A stretch of 64,000 nucleotides of DNA. Source: Gemmatimonadales bacterium (GTDB lineage Bacteria > Gemmatimonadota > Gemmatimonadetes > Longimicrobiales > Gaopeijiaceae). The notes below the pieces were generated by a model. It made no database searches. It was not told the origin of the DNA and saw only the letters and a list, made by a program, of their open reading frames with translations. The stretch lies in NCBI GenBank assembly GCA_007692665.1, contig REBP01000074.1, positions 1 to 64,000 of the forward strand. Reading direction: 5' to 3'. Made by a program: the position numbers and the translations under genes. Of the stretch, positions 55,297 to 64,000 are shown piece by piece (position 1 is the stretch's first letter; every line of letters starts with the position of its first letter).

Positions 55297-57066
55297 TCAG
55301 CGACCGGGGTGGGGCAGCACCGCCCCGGGGCCGCGCACGAAGCGGCCCGGGCGCGCGTCGGTGGCCTCGCCGGAGCGAATCACCCCCACCCCGTTCACGA
55401 GGACGTGCACCATGCCTTCCGCGAGCTGGTGGGGTTGCTCGAAGGTCGACCGCTCGGCCACCGTTTCCGGGTCGAAGACCACGACGTCGGCGTAGAATCC
55501 CTCGACGATGAGGCCCCGCTCGGCAAGCCCGATGCGCTCCGCCGCGGCCCACGAGGACTTCCTCACCGCGTCCTCCAGCGTGATGACGCCTTCCTCGCGG
55601 ACGTACTGCCCGAGGATCCGGGGGTAGGTCCCGTAGGCCCGGGGGTGCGGCTGCCCGCCGGCGCCACGGGGATTCCACCCCGAGCCGTCGGTCCCGAACT
55701 TCATCCAGGGGAGGGTCAGCTTGCGCCGGACGTTGTCCTCGTCCATGGCGAAGTAGATCATCCCGACCCGGGACCGGTCGGCGAGCACCAGGTCCATGGC
55801 CACGTCCACCCAGTCGACGCCCCGTTCCTGCGCCACGTCGGCCAGCGACTTCCCGATCCAGCGCATGTGGTCCCGATTGGACACCGAGGCGATGCGACTC
55901 CCCTCCGGCGTGGCCAGCCGGCACCAGTTCTCCCACCGGGTGGGGGGGCCCGTCATCTCGGCCCGGATCCTCGCCCGCGCCCCCGGGTCGGCCAGGTTCC
56001 GGTAGAGGTTGCCGTCGGCCTGAACCCAGGGCGGGAAGCAGGCCGTGAGCCCCGTGGACGCGGCCGTGTACGGGTACATGCCGGCGCTCACGTCGATCCC
56101 CCGGGCCCGGGCGCCCTCGATCTTCTCCACCACCTGGTCCGTGAGCCCCCAGTTGTCCACCCCGGCCAGCTTCAGGTGGTAGATCTCCACCGGGACCCCC
56201 GACCGCTCCCCGATCTCGATGGCCTCGTCCAGCGCCTCCAGGATGAAGTAGGACTCGCTCCTGAGGTGGGTGATGTACACGCCGCCGTACTCCGCCACGA
56301 CCCTCGAGACCTCGACGAGCTCATCGGTCTGGGCGAAGGCACCCGGCGCGTAGATCAGCGCCGTCGCCACCCCGAAGGCCCCCTCTTCCATGCTCCGCCG
56401 CGTCACGGCCCGCATGGAGTCCACCTCCGCCGGGGTGGGGGTCCGCTCGGACATCCCCAGCGCCCACCGCCGCACCGTCGTCCCGCCCAGGAAGGAACCC
56501 ACGTTGAGCGCCACACCGCCCCGCTCCATCTCCTCGAGCCAGGCGTCGAACCGCACCCACTCGCGGGCCCGCCTGACCGCCGTCGTGTCGGAGGCATCCA
56601 CACCCCCCGTCACGTTCCGGTTCAGCGGCGCCGGCGTGTTGGACTCCCCCATGATCTCGGTGGTCACACCCTGGAAGATCTTGGAGAGCGCGGATCCATC
56701 CGTCATGTACATGCCGTCGGACTGTCCGTTCAGGTCGATGAACCCCGGGGCCACCACGAGCCCGCTCACGTCCACCACCTCGAGGGCCCGCGACCGATCG
56801 AGCCGTCCGGAAGGTGCGACGGCCGTGATCCGGTCCCCGGCGATCCCCACGTCGGCGTAGCGCCACGCGTTCCCGGTGCCGTCCACCAGTCGCCCCCCGA
56901 CCAGGAGCAGGTCGAACGGCCCGTCCCAGTGTTCGGGATCGGGTGACTCGGCAGCCGCCACCGGCGACGCCCCGCCCGCCTGGAAGGGGAAGGTTCCGCC
57001 GGCGGCCCCGAGGGCCAGGGCCAGCAGCACGACTGAAAGGAGAATCACGGGAAGGGTACGGCGCAT
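55297..57066 (-). CDS. D-aminoacylase-like amidohydrolase with altered metal motif
   Basis: Secreted amidohydrolase of the N-acyl-D-amino-acid deacylase group, 589 residues with an N-terminal signal or anchor helix. Conserved parts are GFID, KIFQGVTTEIMGES, ITHLRSES, EIYHLKLAG and the FGTDGSG aspartate. The usual HxH after GFID is replaced by NGQSD (113-117), and the metal cysteine of the NCG loop is absent, so the metal site must be reduced or different. It follows the racemase gene by 133 bases on the same strand, in a group suited to N-acyl and D-amino-acid use. A dipeptidase or peptidoglycan-fragment activity is an alternative. Confidence 0.82.
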   Translation of the reverse strand: MRRTLPVILLSVVLLALALGAAGGTFPFQAGGASPVAAAESPDPEHWDGPFDLLLVGGRLVDGTGNAWRYADVGIAGDRITAVAPSGRLDRSRALEVVDVSGLVVAPGFIDLNGQSDGMYMTDGSALSKIFQGVTTEIMGESNTPAPLNRNVTGGVDASDTTAVRRAREWVRFDAWLEEMERGGVALNVGSFLGGTTVRRWALGMSERTPTPAEVDSMRAVTRRSMEEGAFGVATALIYAPGAFAQTDELVEVSRVVAEYGGVYITHLRSESYFILEALDEAIEIGERSGVPVEIYHLKLAGVDNWGLTDQVVEKIEGARARGIDVSAGMYPYTAASTGLTACFPPWVQADGNLYRNLADPGARARIRAEMTGPPTRWENWCRLATPEGSRIASVSNRDHMRWIGKSLADVAQERGVDWVDVAMDLVLADRSRVGMIYFAMDEDNVRRKLTLPWMKFGTDGSGWNPRGAGGQPHPRAYGTYPRILGQYVREEGVITLEDAVRKSSWAAAERIGLAERGLIVEGFYADVVVFDPETVAERSTFEQPHQLAEGMVHVLVNGVGVIRSGEATDARPGRFVRGPGAVLPHPGR

Positions 57067-57160
57067 CTCGGTATCCGTCTGAAGTGAAAATGGTCGGGCC
57101 GCGTCCTCGGTGGACGCCCCCGGGTCAGGGTCCCGCCGGAGATCCCTTCCGGGGTTCCGC

Positions 57161-57210
57161 CAGGGCCCATCAGGGCCCGTCAGAGTTCGTCAGGGCCCAT
57201 CAGGGCCTGA
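57161..57210. repeat. Five 10-base tandem repeats across the racemase stop
   Basis: CAGGGCCCAT, CAGGGCCCGT, CAGAGTTCGT, CAGGGCCCAT and CAGGGCCTGA follow each other without gap. The last unit contains the stop codon of the racemase gene. The run may form small hairpins because GGGCCC is self-complementary. No function is apparent. Confidence 0.6.
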
Positions 57211-58324
57211 TCAGCGTTCCGCCGGGAAACTCGACGCGGCGGCGCGTGAGCGCCTCGATCCGGTCCATCCGGAGCTCCACCCCGATCCCGGGGCCGTCGA
57301 CGGGTCCCATGTACCCGTCCACCGGTTCCCACTCCGGCGACACGATATCCTCCTCCCAGTACCGTCGGCTCCCGGAAAGATCACCGGGCAGCGTAAACCC
57401 GGGAAGCCCCGCCAGGGCCACGTTGAAGGCCCGCCCGATTCCCGACTCGAGCATGCCGCCGCACCACACCGGAACCCCCGCCTCCCTGCACACGTCGTGG
57501 ATCGCCCGGGACTCCGCCAGCCCCCCCACCCGTCCGGGCTTGATGTTGATGATCCGCCCCGCATCCAGGTGAAGCGCCAGCCGGACGTCGCCCACCGACC
57601 GGATCGATTCGTCCAGGCACACCGGGGTCCGAAGCTCCGCCTGGAGCGCCGCGTGGTCAAGCAGGTCCTCGTGCCCGAGGGGCTGCTCGATCATCAGGAG
57701 CTCCAGGTCGTCCATCTCCTTCAGCATGGGCAGATCCCCCAGCGTGTAGGCCGAGTTCGCATCCGCCATGAGCGGCACATCCCCGAACCTGTCCCGCACC
57801 GCCCGGAGCATCGCCACGTCCCGCCCGGGCTTCACCTTCACCTTGATCCGCCGGTACCCCTCCTCCAGGTACCCCTCCACCTTCCGCAGCAGCGCGTCGT
57901 TCCCCGCCTGGAGCCCGATGCTCACGCCCACCGGCACCGGCGCCCCCGAACCCCCCAGCATCTCCCAGAGCGGCACGCCGACCGCCCGCGCATGGAGGTC
58001 CCAGACCGCCATCTCCATGGCCGCCTTCGCCATCCGGTGTCCCCGCACGTGCGGTGCGTGGTCCAGAACCTCCCCGGGTCCCATGACCTCCCGCCCCACC
58101 AGCCCGGGAAGGAGGTGTTCGGTGAGAACGTGCCAGGCGGTCTCGCTCGTCTCGTACGAGTACCCCGGATCCTCCGCCGCGACACACTCCCCCCATCCCT
58201 CGAGCCCCTCCCCCCGCACCCGCACCAGCAGGATACTCCGGATGTGCCACCGCCCCGAGCTCGTCACGAAGGGCTCCCGGAGCGGCAGCCGGATCTCGCG
58301 CAGTTCCACCGAATCGATCTTCAT
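57200..58324 (-). CDS. menC: N-succinylamino-acid racemase / o-succinylbenzoate synthase family (NSAR/OSBS)
   Basis: Enolase-superfamily enzyme of 374 residues. The two-base mechanism is complete: Lys163 in KVKVK and Lys262 in IKPGR, with metal ligands Asp188 (DANSAY), Glu213 (IEQPL) and Asp238 (LDESI). CGGMLESGIGRA near 300 is typical of the NSAR/OSBS branch. No other menaquinone genes lie here. The start overlaps the stop of the GNAT gene (ATGA, 58321-58324), which is followed upstream by an M20 peptidase, the known set for turning D- into L-amino acids through N-succinyl intermediates. I therefore favour the racemase role, although both activities often coexist. Confidence 0.88.
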   Translation of the reverse strand: MKIDSVELREIRLPLREPFVTSSGRWHIRSILLVRVRGEGLEGWGECVAAEDPGYSYETSETAWHVLTEHLLPGLVGREVMGPGEVLDHAPHVRGHRMAKAAMEMAVWDLHARAVGVPLWEMLGGSGAPVPVGVSIGLQAGNDALLRKVEGYLEEGYRRIKVKVKPGRDVAMLRAVRDRFGDVPLMADANSAYTLGDLPMLKEMDDLELLMIEQPLGHEDLLDHAALQAELRTPVCLDESIRSVGDVRLALHLDAGRIINIKPGRVGGLAESRAIHDVCREAGVPVWCGGMLESGIGRAFNVALAGLPGFTLPGDLSGSRRYWEEDIVSPEWEPVDGYMGPVDGPGIGVELRMDRIEALTRRRVEFPGGTLIRP

Positions 58325-59169
58325 GGCCGATCTCCGTTCCCTGGTTCGTTCCTGCCTGAAAGGTTCTCCCCTGTCGGGGGATGCGAGGCACCTGGCGGAG
58401 GCACGACCAGCAGCGCGGGGGGGGCTGGCGCACCCGGGTCCTCGAAGCCCCGTACCTCCCCCCCTTCGGCCAGGAGGGGGACCAGCGCATCCCGCACGCG
58501 GATCCTCCACCGCCGGGCCTCGTCCGGATCCCGGGCCTTGAGGTCCTGCACGTTCCGCGGGATCGGCACCCGCACCACCCGCGTGTCCGGGTCCGTGTCC
58601 GGGTCCGCGCCCGGCACCCAGGGCGCCCGCGCCTCGGCATCCAGCTTCCACGACACCACGAGCCGGTCCGTCCCGATGCCCGCATGAAGCGGCGACGACG
58701 GGACCCCGTACATGTCCTCCTCGTACCACCGCCCCACGGCACCGAGGCGGGCCAGATTGAGCGCGGCGTTTCCGGCCTCCAGCGGGTCGAAGCTCCACCG
58801 CATCTCCCCGACCCCCAGTTCCAGGAGGCGAGCCCGCTGCCACGCCTTGAGGGCGGTCCCCACGCCCCGGCCACGCCACGGGGGAAGCACCGCGAGCATG
58901 TCGGACCAGTGGACCGGGCGACCCCCGTCGAGGCCGGTGAGCCCGAACACGAATCCGATCATCTCTCCCTGCGCCGCAGCGGGACCGCCCCCGGCAAACG
59001 CTCCGGCGATGACGCCGCCGTACCGGCTCGCGACACGAAGGATGGCCGCCGGGACCGATTCGCCGAATCCCTCGCCCCAGGTGGCCTGCTGCAGCCGGAC
59101 GCACGCCTCGAACTCGGGCTGGGTGCGCAGGTCGCGGATCCCGATTCCGGCGGGCAGCGTGACCTCCAT
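58321..59169 (-). CDS. GNAT acyltransferase, likely the N-acyl (succinyl) transferase partner of the racemase
   Basis: Acyl-CoA N-acyltransferase of 282 residues, GNAT fold with the CoA motif PWRGRGVGTALKAWQ near 92-107 and RWSFDPLEAGNAALNLARLGAVG, typical of the COG3375-like group found beside NSAR/OSBS genes. In Geobacillus-type pathways such an enzyme succinylates D-amino acids. The C-terminal third holds an Asp/Pro repeat (DPDTDPDTR) coded by a perfect 12-base duplication at 58583-58606. It overlaps the racemase gene by four bases and lies 27 bases after the M20 peptidase gene. Confidence 0.82.
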   Translation of the reverse strand: MEVTLPAGIGIRDLRTQPEFEACVRLQQATWGEGFGESVPAAILRVASRYGGVIAGAFAGGGPAAAQGEMIGFVFGLTGLDGGRPVHWSDMLAVLPPWRGRGVGTALKAWQRARLLELGVGEMRWSFDPLEAGNAALNLARLGAVGRWYEEDMYGVPSSPLHAGIGTDRLVVSWKLDAEARAPWVPGADPDTDPDTRVVRVPIPRNVQDLKARDPDEARRWRIRVRDALVPLLAEGGEVRGFEDPGAPAPPALLVVPPPGASHPPTGENLSGRNEPGNGDRP

Positions 59170-59196
59170 CAGGCGGCGTCCATCAGGCGGCCTTCA

Positions 59197-60360
59197 TCAG
59201 GATTCGCTTCCCACGCGGGCCAGCAGGTCGGCGAGAAACCCGATCCTCCACCCCAGGTCCTCCAGCTGGATGTGCTCCTCGTGGGTATGCGCCCCGTCGC
59301 CATTCACCCCCAGGCCGTCCAGAACGGGGCAGCCGGCGGCGGCCAGGAAGTTGCCGTCGCTTCCCCCACCGGTGGCACCGCCGTCGAACCCGGGGCGACC
59401 GTGGAGTGCGGCCACCTCCGCCGCCACCGCGAGGAGCTCCCGACTCCGGGGGGTCGGTTCCAGGGGCGGACGTCCGATGCCGCCCTCGACCCTGAACGCC
59501 ACTCGGGGGGCAGGGGAGCCGAGCGCCGCCACCTCCGACTCGATCCGCTCCGCCTCCTCCGATGTCGAGATTCGGACGTCCACGACGAGGTGGACCTCCT
59601 CGGCCACGACGTTCACCGCCGTTCCACCCCGAACGGTCCCGACGTTCAGCGTGGTGCCCCGCTCCGGCGCCGCCAGCGCCAGGAGGCGCGGGAGGAAGGT
59701 CCCGAGGGCGTGAATCGCGCTGGCCCCCCGTTCGGGCTCGATGCCGCTGTGGGCGGGCACTCCCGTCAGCGTGATCCGGAACTGCCCGACCCCCTTCCTG
59801 CGGATCTTCGCGTGCCCGCCGGGCATGGGGGGCTCCAGAACCAGGGCGCCGAAAGCCTGGCGGGCCTCCTCTTCAAGGAGCCCGCGCGAGCTCGGGGCGC
59901 CGATTTCCTCGTCGGGGGTGACGAGGATCCTGAGGGTGCGGGCGGGTCGCTCCCCACGCGCCCGTAGGCGGTTCAGGGCCCCGACAAGCACGGCCAGCCC
60001 CGCCTTCATGTCGTACACCCCCGGGCCGAAGAGGCGTCGTCCCTCCTCGCGGAGCGGGAGGGGCCCGATGAGCGTACCGACGCGGTGCACCGTGTCCAGG
60101 TGGCCCACCACCAGGAGGGGGGGTGCCGACGGGTTCGCTCCCGGCACCCGAGCCACCAGCGTCGGGGGGGGCACGACCTTCCGGTCGGGAGGAAAGTCCA
60201 CCTCGAGTTCGGCGCCCGCATCCTCGAGTGCGTCCGCCAGGACCCCGAGGGCGAGGGTAACCGCCGCCGGGTCGGAGCTGGGGGATTCGATGCGGACCAG
60301 CGTCTCCAGGAGCGTGCGCACCTCCCGGATCTCGGCCTCGTTCACGTTGTTCACGTCCAT
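59197..60360 (-). CDS. M20-family metallopeptidase (carboxypeptidase G2 / desuccinylase-like)
   Basis: Zinc peptidase of 387 residues. Ligand motifs GHLDT, YDMKAG (bridging Asp), PDEEIG (catalytic Glu and ligand) and a C-terminal HEEHIQ are intact, and the dimerisation domain (about 180-290) is in place. Related enzymes remove N-acyl or glutamyl groups; next to NSAR and GNAT genes the expected role is release of L-amino acids from N-succinyl-L-amino acids. I start at the ATG at 60360. The stop of glcF upstream overlaps it by ten bases, so it is co-transcribed. Confidence 0.87.
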   Translation of the reverse strand: MDVNNVNEAEIREVRTLLETLVRIESPSSDPAAVTLALGVLADALEDAGAELEVDFPPDRKVVPPPTLVARVPGANPSAPPLLVVGHLDTVHRVGTLIGPLPLREEGRRLFGPGVYDMKAGLAVLVGALNRLRARGERPARTLRILVTPDEEIGAPSSRGLLEEEARQAFGALVLEPPMPGGHAKIRRKGVGQFRITLTGVPAHSGIEPERGASAIHALGTFLPRLLALAAPERGTTLNVGTVRGGTAVNVVAEEVHLVVDVRISTSEEAERIESEVAALGSPAPRVAFRVEGGIGRPPLEPTPRSRELLAVAAEVAALHGRPGFDGGATGGGSDGNFLAAAGCPVLDGLGVNGDGAHTHEEHIQLEDLGWRIGFLADLLARVGSES

Positions 60361-61760
60361 CCTGCCCTCCGGTAGCTTTCCGCCAGAAGTTCGACAGGGT
60401 GGGCCACCCCGATGGTGTGCCCCCCCAGCCGGATCCCCGCCCCGATCTGCATCTGGCACCCGGGGTTCCCCGTGGCCACCAGGTCACAGCCCGAGTCCAC
60501 CACGGCGTCCACCTTGTCCCGCCCGATGCGCCCCCCCAGGTCAGGGTGCGTGATCCCGTAGATCCCCGCGCCCCCGCAGCAGCGCTCGGCATCCCGCAGC
60601 GCGACGAGCTCCACCCCGGGAATGGACTCGAGGAGCCGGCGGGGAGGCTCCACCACGCGCTGGGCGTGGAGGAGGTGGCAGGGGGGGTCGTAGGCCACCC
60701 GAAGCGGAAGGGGTGCGCCCGTCACCGGCTCCCGCCCGTCCCCGGCGAGGATCTCGGAAATGTCACGGACCCGGTCCGACAGCGCCCCGGCGGGTCCCTC
60801 CATCCCGTCCCTGCCCCCTTCCTCGCCCAGGAGTTCGGGGAGCTCCCGAAGCAGTGCGCCGCATCCGGCGGCATTGACCACCAGGAAATCGATCCCGCCC
60901 GGCGCCTCCGAGAAGGCCCGGATGTTCCTTCGCGCGAGGGTTCGCGCCTCCCCGAGGGCCCCCGCGTGAGCGTGCAGCGCTCCGCAGCAACCCTGGTCCT
61001 TCACCTCCACCACCTCCCACCCGTTGACCCGCAGGGCGAGGCGGGTGGCCTCGTGGACCCGGCGGAAGAGCTGGTCCTGCACGCATCCCGCCAGGAGGGC
61101 CACCCGACCCATGGACCCCGGGGCAACGCCGACCGGCGCGGCCGGAGCGTTGGACTCGCCCCGTTCGGCCGGTTCGAAGCGGGGGGCTCCGGATGCGGCG
61201 AGCATCCCCATGGCGAGGCGGGGCGCATCCGAGAAGCGACCGGCCGGGAGGGCGCGGGCCGCCAGCGCGGGGAGGCCGGTGGCGCGGAGGGTGCGGCCTC
61301 CCGCACCGAAGACGTGGCCCAGGACCGGCGACGCCATGGTCGCCAGGAGCGCCCGTGTGAGGAGCCCCGCGGGCCTGGCCTCGATGGCCACCGATCGGGC
61401 CCGCTCCAGCAGCAGACCGTACTCCACGCCCGAGGGACAGACGGGCTCGCAGGCCCGGCACCCGAGGCACCGGTCCATGTGGCGCTGAAAGGCGTCGCCC
61501 CCCGGATCCAGGCGTCCCTCCACCACGGCCCGCATGAGGTGGAGGCGACCCCGCGGGGAGTCGGCCTCGTCGCCCAGTTCCTGGTAGGTCGGGCAGGCGG
61601 GAAGGCAGAAGCCGCAGTGCACGCAGTGCCCGAGGAGTTCCTCCCGCTCCGAGAGGGCCAGGGCCAGGGCCCCGCCGGGCGAGGTGGCAGGCGTGGTGGC
61701 GGGCGTGGAAGCGGCCATGGAACCGGGCGCAGGACCGGGCGCAGGACCGGGTGATGTCAC
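60351..61760 (-). CDS. glcF: Glycolate oxidase iron-sulfur subunit GlcF
   Basis: Fe-S subunit of glycolate oxidase, linking glycolate oxidation to quinone. In 469 residues: two 4Fe-4S motifs (CVHCGFCLPAC and CLGCRACEPVC) in the first 110, and two cysteine-rich CCG domains (DQGCCGALHAHAG and ERCCGGAGIYG) in the second half. The GTG start overlaps the aldehyde dehydrogenase stop (GTGA, 61757-61760). Residues 3-30 are a Pro/Ala/Thr repeat, coded in part by two copies of a 12-base unit (61728-61751), not seen in normal GlcF. It lies between the dehydrogenase and the M20 gene. Confidence 0.9.
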   Translation of the reverse strand: MTSPGPAPGPAPGSMAASTPATTPATSPGGALALALSEREELLGHCVHCGFCLPACPTYQELGDEADSPRGRLHLMRAVVEGRLDPGGDAFQRHMDRCLGCRACEPVCPSGVEYGLLLERARSVAIEARPAGLLTRALLATMASPVLGHVFGAGGRTLRATGLPALAARALPAGRFSDAPRLAMGMLAASGAPRFEPAERGESNAPAAPVGVAPGSMGRVALLAGCVQDQLFRRVHEATRLALRVNGWEVVEVKDQGCCGALHAHAGALGEARTLARRNIRAFSEAPGGIDFLVVNAAGCGALLRELPELLGEEGGRDGMEGPAGALSDRVRDISEILAGDGREPVTGAPLPLRVAYDPPCHLLHAQRVVEPPRRLLESIPGVELVALRDAERCCGGAGIYGITHPDLGGRIGRDKVDAVVDSGCDLVATGNPGCQMQIGAGIRLGGHTIGVAHPVELLAESYRRAGWT

Positions 61761-63529
61761 CGAATCTCCTTCGACATGAGGCGCACGAGCACCGCCACGA
61801 GTCCGCGCAGACCCCGGTGCTGTTCCCATCCCAGCAGCGCACGCGTGAGCTTCCGCCCCCGGGGCCCGTAGGGGAACCACCACGGGTCCGGGCGTCGCCC
61901 CCCCCGCCGGACGAGGATGCTCCGGCTCCGGCTGAAGGCCAGGAGCCCTTCGCCACCCCGGGCACGGGACCAGCCGGATTCCCCCACGCCCCCCATGGGA
62001 AGCCCGGGAATCGCCCACTGGGAAAGCGTGTCGTTCACGGACACGCCTCCGGCCCTGATCCGGTGGGCCAGTGCCCGCCCCCGCGCCAGGTCCCGGGTCC
62101 AGATCGAGGCATGAAGCCCCATGGGATGCCGGTTGGCCAGCAGGATGGCCTCGTCGGCGCCCTGCACGGACACGACGGGGAGGAGCGGTCCGAAGGTTTC
62201 CTCCTCGAGCACGAGCGCCCCTTCGGGCACGTCGGCGAGGACCGTGGGGAGGAAGATGTTCGAGGCCGGATCGGCGCGCGTACCTCCGCAGAGGATCCTG
62301 GCCCCCCGATCCACGGCATCGGCGACCTGGGCTTCCACGGTCTCGAGCCCCGCGCCGAGGACCATGGGCCCGATCTCGACGTTTCCGCCGGTCCCGGCGC
62401 GCAGTTCCGACGTCACGCGCACCAGGATGCGGAGGAACTCCTCGTAGACCGGGGCCTCCACGTAGACCCGCTCGGTGGAAATGCAGGTCTGTCCCGCGTT
62501 GTAGAAGGCACCAAAGGCGATCCCCCGGGCCGCGGTCTCCAGCTCCGCATCGGCGAGGACCAGCGCCGGGTCCTTCCCGCCCAGCTCCACCGAGACCGGG
62601 ATCAGGTGCTCCGCGGCCCGGGCAAGGACGGCACGCCCGGTGACGGGGCTTCCCACCAGGTGGACGTGGTCCGGGCGGGCGTCGACCAGGGCGCTCCCCG
62701 TGAGGGCCCCACCCTGGACCACGACCACGAGGTCCTCGGGGAGACCGGCCTCCTCGCAGATCTCCGCCACGATGGCCCCGGTGAAGGGGGTGTGCTCGGA
62801 GGGCTTGAGGACCACCCCGTTTCCGGCGAAGAGGGCCGTGATGACCGGTTCCATCGACAGCGTGAACGGGTAGTTCCAGGGCGCCAGGACGGCGATCACG
62901 CCCAGGGGCTCGTGGAAGATCCGGGCCGATCCCCCCGGGAGGAGACCGGCCCCGATGCGTCGGGGGGCCAGCACCTTCCGGGCGGTCCGTTCGTAGTGCC
63001 GAAGCAGGCGAAGCACGACCAGGACCTCGGTGAGGGCCTCGTCCTCGGGCTTTCCCGTCTCGGCAATGATCCTGTCGGCGATGTCGTCGGTCCGACGCCC
63101 GATGACCCGTCTGAGCGCCACGAGCCGCGCCGTCCGCTCCTCCACGGCCAGGGCACCCCAGACCGCCTGGGCGTTCCGGGCCCGGAGTACCGAGGCTTCC
63201 ACCACGGCCACCGGGTCCACGGGCATGACCCCCACCAGCCCCCGGTCCGCGGGTCGACGAATCCGGAGCTCGGTGAGGGGGGGCGGGGGCTCCGGGTCCG
63301 CGCCCGGTTCCGTGTCCACATCCGGCTCTCGGTCCCTCCGAATCCGTTCGGGGAACGGTCTCGACCGGTCTGGATCGCCATGCACGTCGAGCCGCCGGGA
63401 CAGTCGGGTGCTCTCCTCCGCCGCCTCCGCCGCCGCCGCAGATTCCGGACCGGCCTCCCGGCGAGCCCGGACTTCCGGGGAAAGCTGGGCCCCCCGGGCG
63501 CCGGCCGAGGCCGTCGGTGAGCGATTCAC
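61757..63529 (-). CDS. Aldehyde dehydrogenase with a long disordered N-terminus
   Basis: NAD(P)+-dependent aldehyde dehydrogenase of 590 residues. Active-site features are complete: PWNYPF (218-223), Glu315 in VELGGKD and Cys349 in AGQTCIS. About 95 residues rich in Ala, Arg, Pro and Glu precede the catalytic domain, beyond the family norm; the C-terminal end KLTRALLGWEQHRGLRG resembles membrane-associated fatty or short-chain dehydrogenases. The GTG start overlaps the GlcE-like stop (GTGA), which supports the long form. Between glcE and glcF genes it may supply glycolate from glycolaldehyde, but other aldehydes are possible. Confidence 0.87.
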   Translation of the reverse strand: MNRSPTASAGARGAQLSPEVRARREAGPESAAAAEAAEESTRLSRRLDVHGDPDRSRPFPERIRRDREPDVDTEPGADPEPPPPLTELRIRRPADRGLVGVMPVDPVAVVEASVLRARNAQAVWGALAVEERTARLVALRRVIGRRTDDIADRIIAETGKPEDEALTEVLVVLRLLRHYERTARKVLAPRRIGAGLLPGGSARIFHEPLGVIAVLAPWNYPFTLSMEPVITALFAGNGVVLKPSEHTPFTGAIVAEICEEAGLPEDLVVVVQGGALTGSALVDARPDHVHLVGSPVTGRAVLARAAEHLIPVSVELGGKDPALVLADAELETAARGIAFGAFYNAGQTCISTERVYVEAPVYEEFLRILVRVTSELRAGTGGNVEIGPMVLGAGLETVEAQVADAVDRGARILCGGTRADPASNIFLPTVLADVPEGALVLEEETFGPLLPVVSVQGADEAILLANRHPMGLHASIWTRDLARGRALAHRIRAGGVSVNDTLSQWAIPGLPMGGVGESGWSRARGGEGLLAFSRSRSILVRRGGRRPDPWWFPYGPRGRKLTRALLGWEQHRGLRGLVAVLVRLMSKEIR

Positions 63530-64000
63530 CGGGATCCTCCCGCGGTGGCCGGGGGAACTGCCCCGAGAAAGACGGTGTCGATTTCAGCCAGGATGCGGGC
63601 GCGGACCGGATCGTCGGGGCGCCGGGCCTCCCCCTGGACGACGAGGTGCCCGCCTGCGCTGCGCACGGCCTCCTCGAACGGCGCCCTCCCTGCCTCCCCG
63701 GGACCGGGAATGCCGCCCGCGGGGATGCGGGCCTCCACGCCACCGTCCATGAGATGGGCGGCCAGCCAGCTCCCGGTTCCGCGGCCTTCCCCCCGTCCCA
63801 CCAGGGGTCGGAAGGCCTCCAGCAGCGCCCCGGATGCGGCGGGCATGCCCGCGCTCCGAAGCGACAGGGTTCCCTCCAGCCGGGGGGTCAGGCCGCCGGC
63901 CTCTCGCGCCCGTTCTTCCCACCACGCCGCGCCTTCGGTGCCCTCGAGTTTCCGGGGGCCGATCCTCGAGGTCCCGCTGCCGCCCAGGCCGGCGGCGGCG
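63526..64000 (-). CDS. glcE: GlcE-like FAD oxidase subunit, N-terminus outside the window
   Basis: The last 157 residues of a protein that runs off the right edge. The visible part has an alpha/beta pattern ending in GGHLVVQGEARRPDDPVRARI, similar to the C-terminal cap of FAD-linked glycolate oxidase subunit GlcE, where a GGH-type strand precedes the final helix. The FAD-binding domain would lie outside. The assignment rests mainly on context: it overlaps the aldehyde dehydrogenase gene (GTGA) and is followed by glcF. An internal ATG at 63846 is not the start, because the frame stays open to the edge. Confidence 0.6.
   Translation of the reverse strand, partial: AAAGLGGSGTSRIGPRKLEGTEGAAWWEERAREAGGLTPRLEGTLSLRSAGMPAASGALLEAFRPLVGRGEGRGTGSWLAAHLMDGGVEARIPAGGIPGPGEAGRAPFEEAVRSAGGHLVVQGEARRPDDPVRARILAEIDTVFLGAVPPATAGGSR

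Follow-up and report, generated by a model that had tools for sequence, protein, structure and literature searches.

Can a single enolase-superfamily gene serve D-amino-acid salvage and menaquinone synthesis alike? The question is raised by a locus in the window (the whole stretch of 64,000 nucleotides analyzed here), where a gene for an N-succinylamino-acid racemase/o-succinylbenzoate synthase (NSAR/OSBS; hereafter, the racemase) lies behind the genes for an M20 metallohydrolase and a GNAT acyltransferase. The NSAR/OSBS subfamily is promiscuous, combining N-acylamino-acid racemization with the OSBS reaction (PMC1431709; PMC4215206), and for the enolase superfamily it has yet to be settled whether OSBS-like enzymes put their NSAR activity to use or show it as a side reaction, and which of these was the earlier. 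The reading we prefer, with a probability of roughly 0.6, is that one NSAR/OSBS enzyme would serve both purposes and that the M20, GNAT, and racemase genes would encode a three-step salvage route. It is based on gene order, co-occurrence, catalytic residues, and the presence of men genes without a menC. All the activities named are deduced from sequence and gene context, and so are the succinyl donor, the use of one enzyme for two purposes, and the substrate of the amidohydrolase encoded behind the racemase.

Organization of the Gene Run

The run begins upstream of the M20 gene, and all its members lie on the minus strand. It opens with a fused gene that we labeled GlcDE-like from its sequence, the scanned fragment giving no Pfam match; only its end is in the window (63526-64000), and it runs on to the contig end at 64892. 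Then come an aldehyde dehydrogenase gene (61757-63529; Pfam Aldedh, 2e-120), which is part of the same run as the M20-GNAT-NSAR genes, and a gene for a GlcF-like Fe-S subunit (60351-61760), which shares 10 bp with the start of the M20 gene. The carboxypeptidase-G2-like M20 metallohydrolase (59197-60360, with its ATG at 60360; Pfam Peptidase_M20 and M20_dimer) is followed after 27 bp by the GNAT acyltransferase (58321-59169; Acetyltransf_1), whose stop codon is overlapped by 4 bp (ATGA) by the ATG of the racemase gene (57200-58324; MR_MLE N and C domains). After a gap of 133 bp lies the gene for an exported amidohydrolase (55297-57066; Amidohydro_3), the N-terminus of which is signal-peptide-like. 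ORF positions and Pfam domains agree with the original prediction, which had placed these last four genes here, the M20, GNAT, and racemase genes as adjoining or overlapping and the amidohydrolase gene behind them. All three gene kinds of the proposed route, GNAT, NSAR, and M20, are thus together at this locus, and the gene-order comparison that had been suggested along with the prediction showed that the M20-GNAT-NSAR order recurs in other genomes. As the same order is found in many of them, chance adjacency of the genes is ruled out.

The Racemase Belongs to the NSAR/OSBS Subfamily

Against the TIGR01928 model the racemase scored 358.6 bits, above the curated cut-off of 200.65, which places it in the subfamily. 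The nearest solved structures, and its closest structural relatives, are the N-acylamino acid racemases of Thermus (2zc8), Deinococcus (1r0m), and Amycolatopsis (1sja), at 1e-109. In the alignment, the catalytic K161, K163, and K263 and the metal ligands D189, E214, and D239 are all kept, as is the second-shell residue R266, which the literature associates with NSAR activity; the Thermus enzyme and the window's racemase have all the catalytic residues and R266 in common. Among full-length genes, R266 is altered only in those of genomes G004 and G098, both without GNAT, besides one unrelated gene (L177). The closest named relatives are from Gemmatimonadetes MAGs, at 61-67% identity, which assigns the window to the Gemmatimonadota. 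The NCBIfam name of the gene is o-succinylbenzoate synthase.

Is the Racemase Also MenC?

The menaquinone genes are elsewhere in the assembly: contig C1 carries menD, menB, menA, and a MenE-like gene, the match of the latter being under its curated cut-off. No menC was found in or beside this menD-menB-menA-menE group, the racemase being located on contig C48, and MqnC was not found in the window's genome, which rules out the futalosine route there. In profile searches, the racemase was the sole strong MR/MLE or MenC match in the assembly. A second, gamma-type MenC was discarded, as a TIGR01927 search of the genome matched only the racemase gene, and a weak second MR_MLE match on contig C49 is an enolase, judging by its sequence. 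A separate menC could be missing because the assembly is 95% complete and in 258 contigs, but single-contig relatives present the same picture, with the men operon and the racemase at separate places (L147/L148, L149/L150, and L153/L154). We compared 99 genomes of the order, 69 in the window's family and 30 outside it (f1, the window's family, f2, f3, and g2 are working codes). Of the 69 f1 genomes, 67 encode MenD, and none of these lacks a TIGR01928 gene, 63 having a single copy; the set with menD and one racemase includes the single-contig genomes G002, G017, G032, and G035. Because the men genes come without a menC, the racemase is the only candidate, and the f1 relatives are alike, the racemase is very likely needed as menC in the window's genome, and probably does not serve salvage alone. 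A menaquinone operon that lacks menC and needs this gene was what the original prediction had set against salvage. We did find half of this, namely menD-B-A-E without menC and a sole candidate, but such a need does not exclude a salvage role, for which the support described below still stands.

There are exceptions to the pattern. G004 has menD and, as its sole candidate, an enolase-superfamily gene without K263 and R266, and thus no evident OSBS; G065 has menD with only a racemase of the other clade (see below); and G093 and G098 keep the racemase gene with neither menD nor GNAT. The case of G004 would suit an arrangement in which the racemase is dedicated to D-amino-acid salvage and the OSBS step falls to an unrecognized, unrelated enzyme, and so would the cassette order, the co-occurrence, and the D-amino-acid setting of GNAT in genus g2. 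We regard this as unlikely, however, since 63 of the 67 f1 genomes with menD have just one NSAR/OSBS gene and enzymes of this subfamily are known to catalyze both reactions (PMC4215206; PMC1431709).

Co-occurrence and Gene Order Point to Salvage

Across the 99 genomes of the order, M20, GNAT, and NSAR genes co-occur. GNAT (aligned family A1) is present in 60 of the 69 f1 genomes, and an M20 orthologue in 68. Outside f1 (n = 30), 10 genomes have both GNAT and racemase, 17 have neither, and 3 have one of them (Fisher 2e-5), while GNAT tracks M20 (Fisher 2e-4), both values being indicative only, as kin genomes are not independent and no kinship correction was applied. A TIGR01928 gene is also kept in seven f2 genomes that have the futalosine route but lack menD (G001, G007, G013, G016, G019, G022, and G031), six of which have GNAT. 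That these menD-less genomes keep the racemase indicates that it has a job outside menaquinone. As for gene order, GNAT is beside the racemase in about 50 of 80 named loci, ten Bacillota loci have the M20-GNAT-NSAR order of the window, and M20 adjoins GNAT in f2 genomes whose racemase is elsewhere (G010, G016, G019, and G031). Many relatives have a gene for a flavin/NAD(P) oxidoreductase-like protein of ~410 aa between GNAT and racemase (L175:8126-9352 and equivalents), which is absent from the window, and most f1 genomes keep GlcF and M20 adjacent.

These observations bear on the possibility that the racemase gene is a plain menC that has become unlinked from the men operon, with GNAT and M20 as neighbors that are incidental or there for something else. 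The gene is indeed the sole MenC candidate in a menD-B-A-E genome and bears the matching NCBIfam name, seven f1 menD genomes keep the racemase without a GNAT match, and there is the precedent of the Amycolatopsis enzyme, which was called a racemase at first and judged an OSBS later (PMC4215206). Nevertheless, a plain menC seems to us quite unlikely, considering that the seven menD-less futalosine genomes keep the racemase, that its pairing with GNAT is kept across phyla, and that R266 is present. A further explanation would be an operon that breaks down some other N-acylated compound with the help of glcDE, the aldehyde dehydrogenase, and glcF, the substrate of racemization being non-succinyl or non-amino-acid. 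The GlcF-M20 adjacency, which in f1 is tighter than that of M20 and GNAT, and the flavin-oxidoreductase-like gene of many relatives speak for it, but no glc genes were detected near the trio in the futalosine relatives or the Bacillota loci, which makes such an operon decidedly unlikely.

Where GNAT has moved away from the racemase, its new neighbors are informative. In 20 genomes, mostly of genus g2, a basic protein of ~150 aa without a Pfam match is encoded between M20 and racemase, in GNAT's place (L149:10699-11169 and equivalents), and 19 of the 20 still encode GNAT elsewhere. It heads a cluster of an S9 peptidase, an M19 dipeptidase, and two amidohydrolases in G017, G023, and G074; a D-amino-acid-dehydrogenase-like gene is part of its cluster in G002, G017, and G074; and a D-aminoacylase-like gene lies no more than about 10 kb from the relocated GNAT in ten such genomes. 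No solved-structure relative of GNAT was found; we propose that it is a succinyl-CoA:D-amino-acid N-succinyltransferase. The D-to-L amino-acid route put forward in the original prediction is backed by the arrangement and joint occurrence of the genes, by the catalytic residues, and by the D-amino-acid context of GNAT where it is unlinked, but probably not in the form of a racemase that works for salvage only. In G037 (L155), GNAT and the amidohydrolase each appear to be split over two distant places, perhaps through rearrangement or an assembly fault.

A Proposed Three-Step Route with a Shared Enzyme

In the shared-enzyme reading, GNAT would put a succinyl group on a D-amino acid, the racemase would turn the N-succinyl-D into the N-succinyl-L form, and M20, our proposed N-succinyl-L-amino-acid desuccinylase, would take off succinate, pulling the conversion toward the L form. 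On the menaquinone side, the racemase would dehydrate SHCHC to o-succinylbenzoate for the menD-menB-menA-menE route, a step that we propose for it since it is the sole MenC candidate of the genome. A GNAT/NSAR/desuccinylase route of Geobacillus kaustophilus, described by Sakai et al. 2006, reportedly converts D- to L-amino acids irreversibly. It comprises the same three enzyme kinds as the window, and the M20-GNAT-NSAR order is that of the Bacillota loci. Unlike that route, the window has glc and aldehyde dehydrogenase genes before the trio and an amidohydrolase gene after it, and its M20 is carboxypeptidase-G2-like rather than of the Bacillota type. PMC8762209 refers to Sakai et al. 2006 for the succinylating GNAT. 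The enzyme kinds are ordinary and their arrangement is partly known; the dual use of one enzyme appears well supported but is unproven.

The nearest solved structure to M20 is carboxypeptidase G2 (4e-35), and the metal-ligand positions are kept. The M20 proteins of the window and of the Bacillota loci share 16-21% identity and have different motif types, which rules out orthology. Since the Bacillota M20, in the same gene order, is of another subfamily, M20 enzymes seem to have been enlisted twice for the same function. Furthermore, genomes that lack GNAT (G005, G049, G061, G062, G081, G093, and G098) also have M20 next to glcF or the racemase, and because it keeps its neighbors there, its role may be wider than, or independent of, that of GNAT.

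The Exported Amidohydrolase

The last gene of the run had been predicted to encode a D-aminoacylase-like enzyme. The overall match to the D-aminoacylase AfDam (1m7j) is strong (1e-84) and His220, His250, and Asp366 are kept, but the metal site differs: where the D-aminoacylase has HxH, Cys, His, His, and Asp, the window's amidohydrolase has NxQ, Glu, His, His, and Asp. NxQ thus stands in for HxH, and the Cys ligand is missing; a conserved Glu (MGE) lies close to where the Cys would be, an assignment that is tentative because the alignment around this Glu is gapped. The distinction matters, as Cys/His/His sites define subtype V amidohydrolases, to which AfDam belongs, and Glu/His/His sites subtype IV, and as PpOngB loses activity with the loss of either His of HxH (PMC12017989). 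In the mononuclear E. coli NagA, QxN replaces HxH at a single-metal site (PMC6016474). The window's enzyme resembles NagA in this type of motif and in its subtype IV Glu/His/His site, but its motif reads NxQ, it sits in the D-aminoacylase branch, and the nagA model gave only 31 bits. In L182, L183, and L006 the racemase gene is immediately followed by an amidohydrolase gene of this kind. The enzyme may yield D-amino acids from extracellular N-acylated D-amino acids, but with the Cys and HxH ligands of D-aminoacylases missing this role is unproven, and for the suggestion that it delivers D-amino acids from peptidoglycan fragments we found no link.

Two Racemase Clades

In a tree of 128 racemase sequences, the window's gene falls in the main f1 clade, and a second clade holds f2, one f3 sequence, and the second copies of G066, G078, and G092. 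This split is compatible with a gene that is shared between both pathways in f1 and used for salvage in f2, without fixing the direction of change. Compared with the promiscuous NSAR/OSBS enzymes, what is particular here is that genome comparison parts both roles, into a clade of menD genomes and a clade of mostly futalosine genomes. The order consequently offers a comparison set, with one racemase clade in genomes that need an OSBS and another mostly in genomes without that need, together with a short list of positions, the few that sharply separate the clades (142, 172, 242, 246, and 249 in TTH numbering). A fuller account, to which we would give slightly less than an even chance, is that in f1 one gene serves menaquinone and salvage, that in the sister futalosine family it serves salvage only, and that the amidohydrolase is a D-aminoacylase-branch enzyme rebuilt around a NagA-like single-metal site. 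If so, the two families would constitute a natural split of NSAR and OSBS activities. Labeling such a gene as menC only, or as racemase only, is likely to be incomplete annotation.

Two minor observations concern the racemase itself. All 71 racemases of genomes without a GNAT-less flag have Ser22 (TTH numbering), and it is altered in 5 of the 10 that come from GNAT-less genomes, a signature of GNAT loss to be taken as a lead only, as it comes from few lineages and one of the genes is not an OSBS. Finally, Gemmatirosa kalamazoonensis, a named Gemmatimonadota species that might be convenient for testing, has a relative of the racemase (54% identity) on its 1.04 Mb plasmid NZ_CP007130.1.
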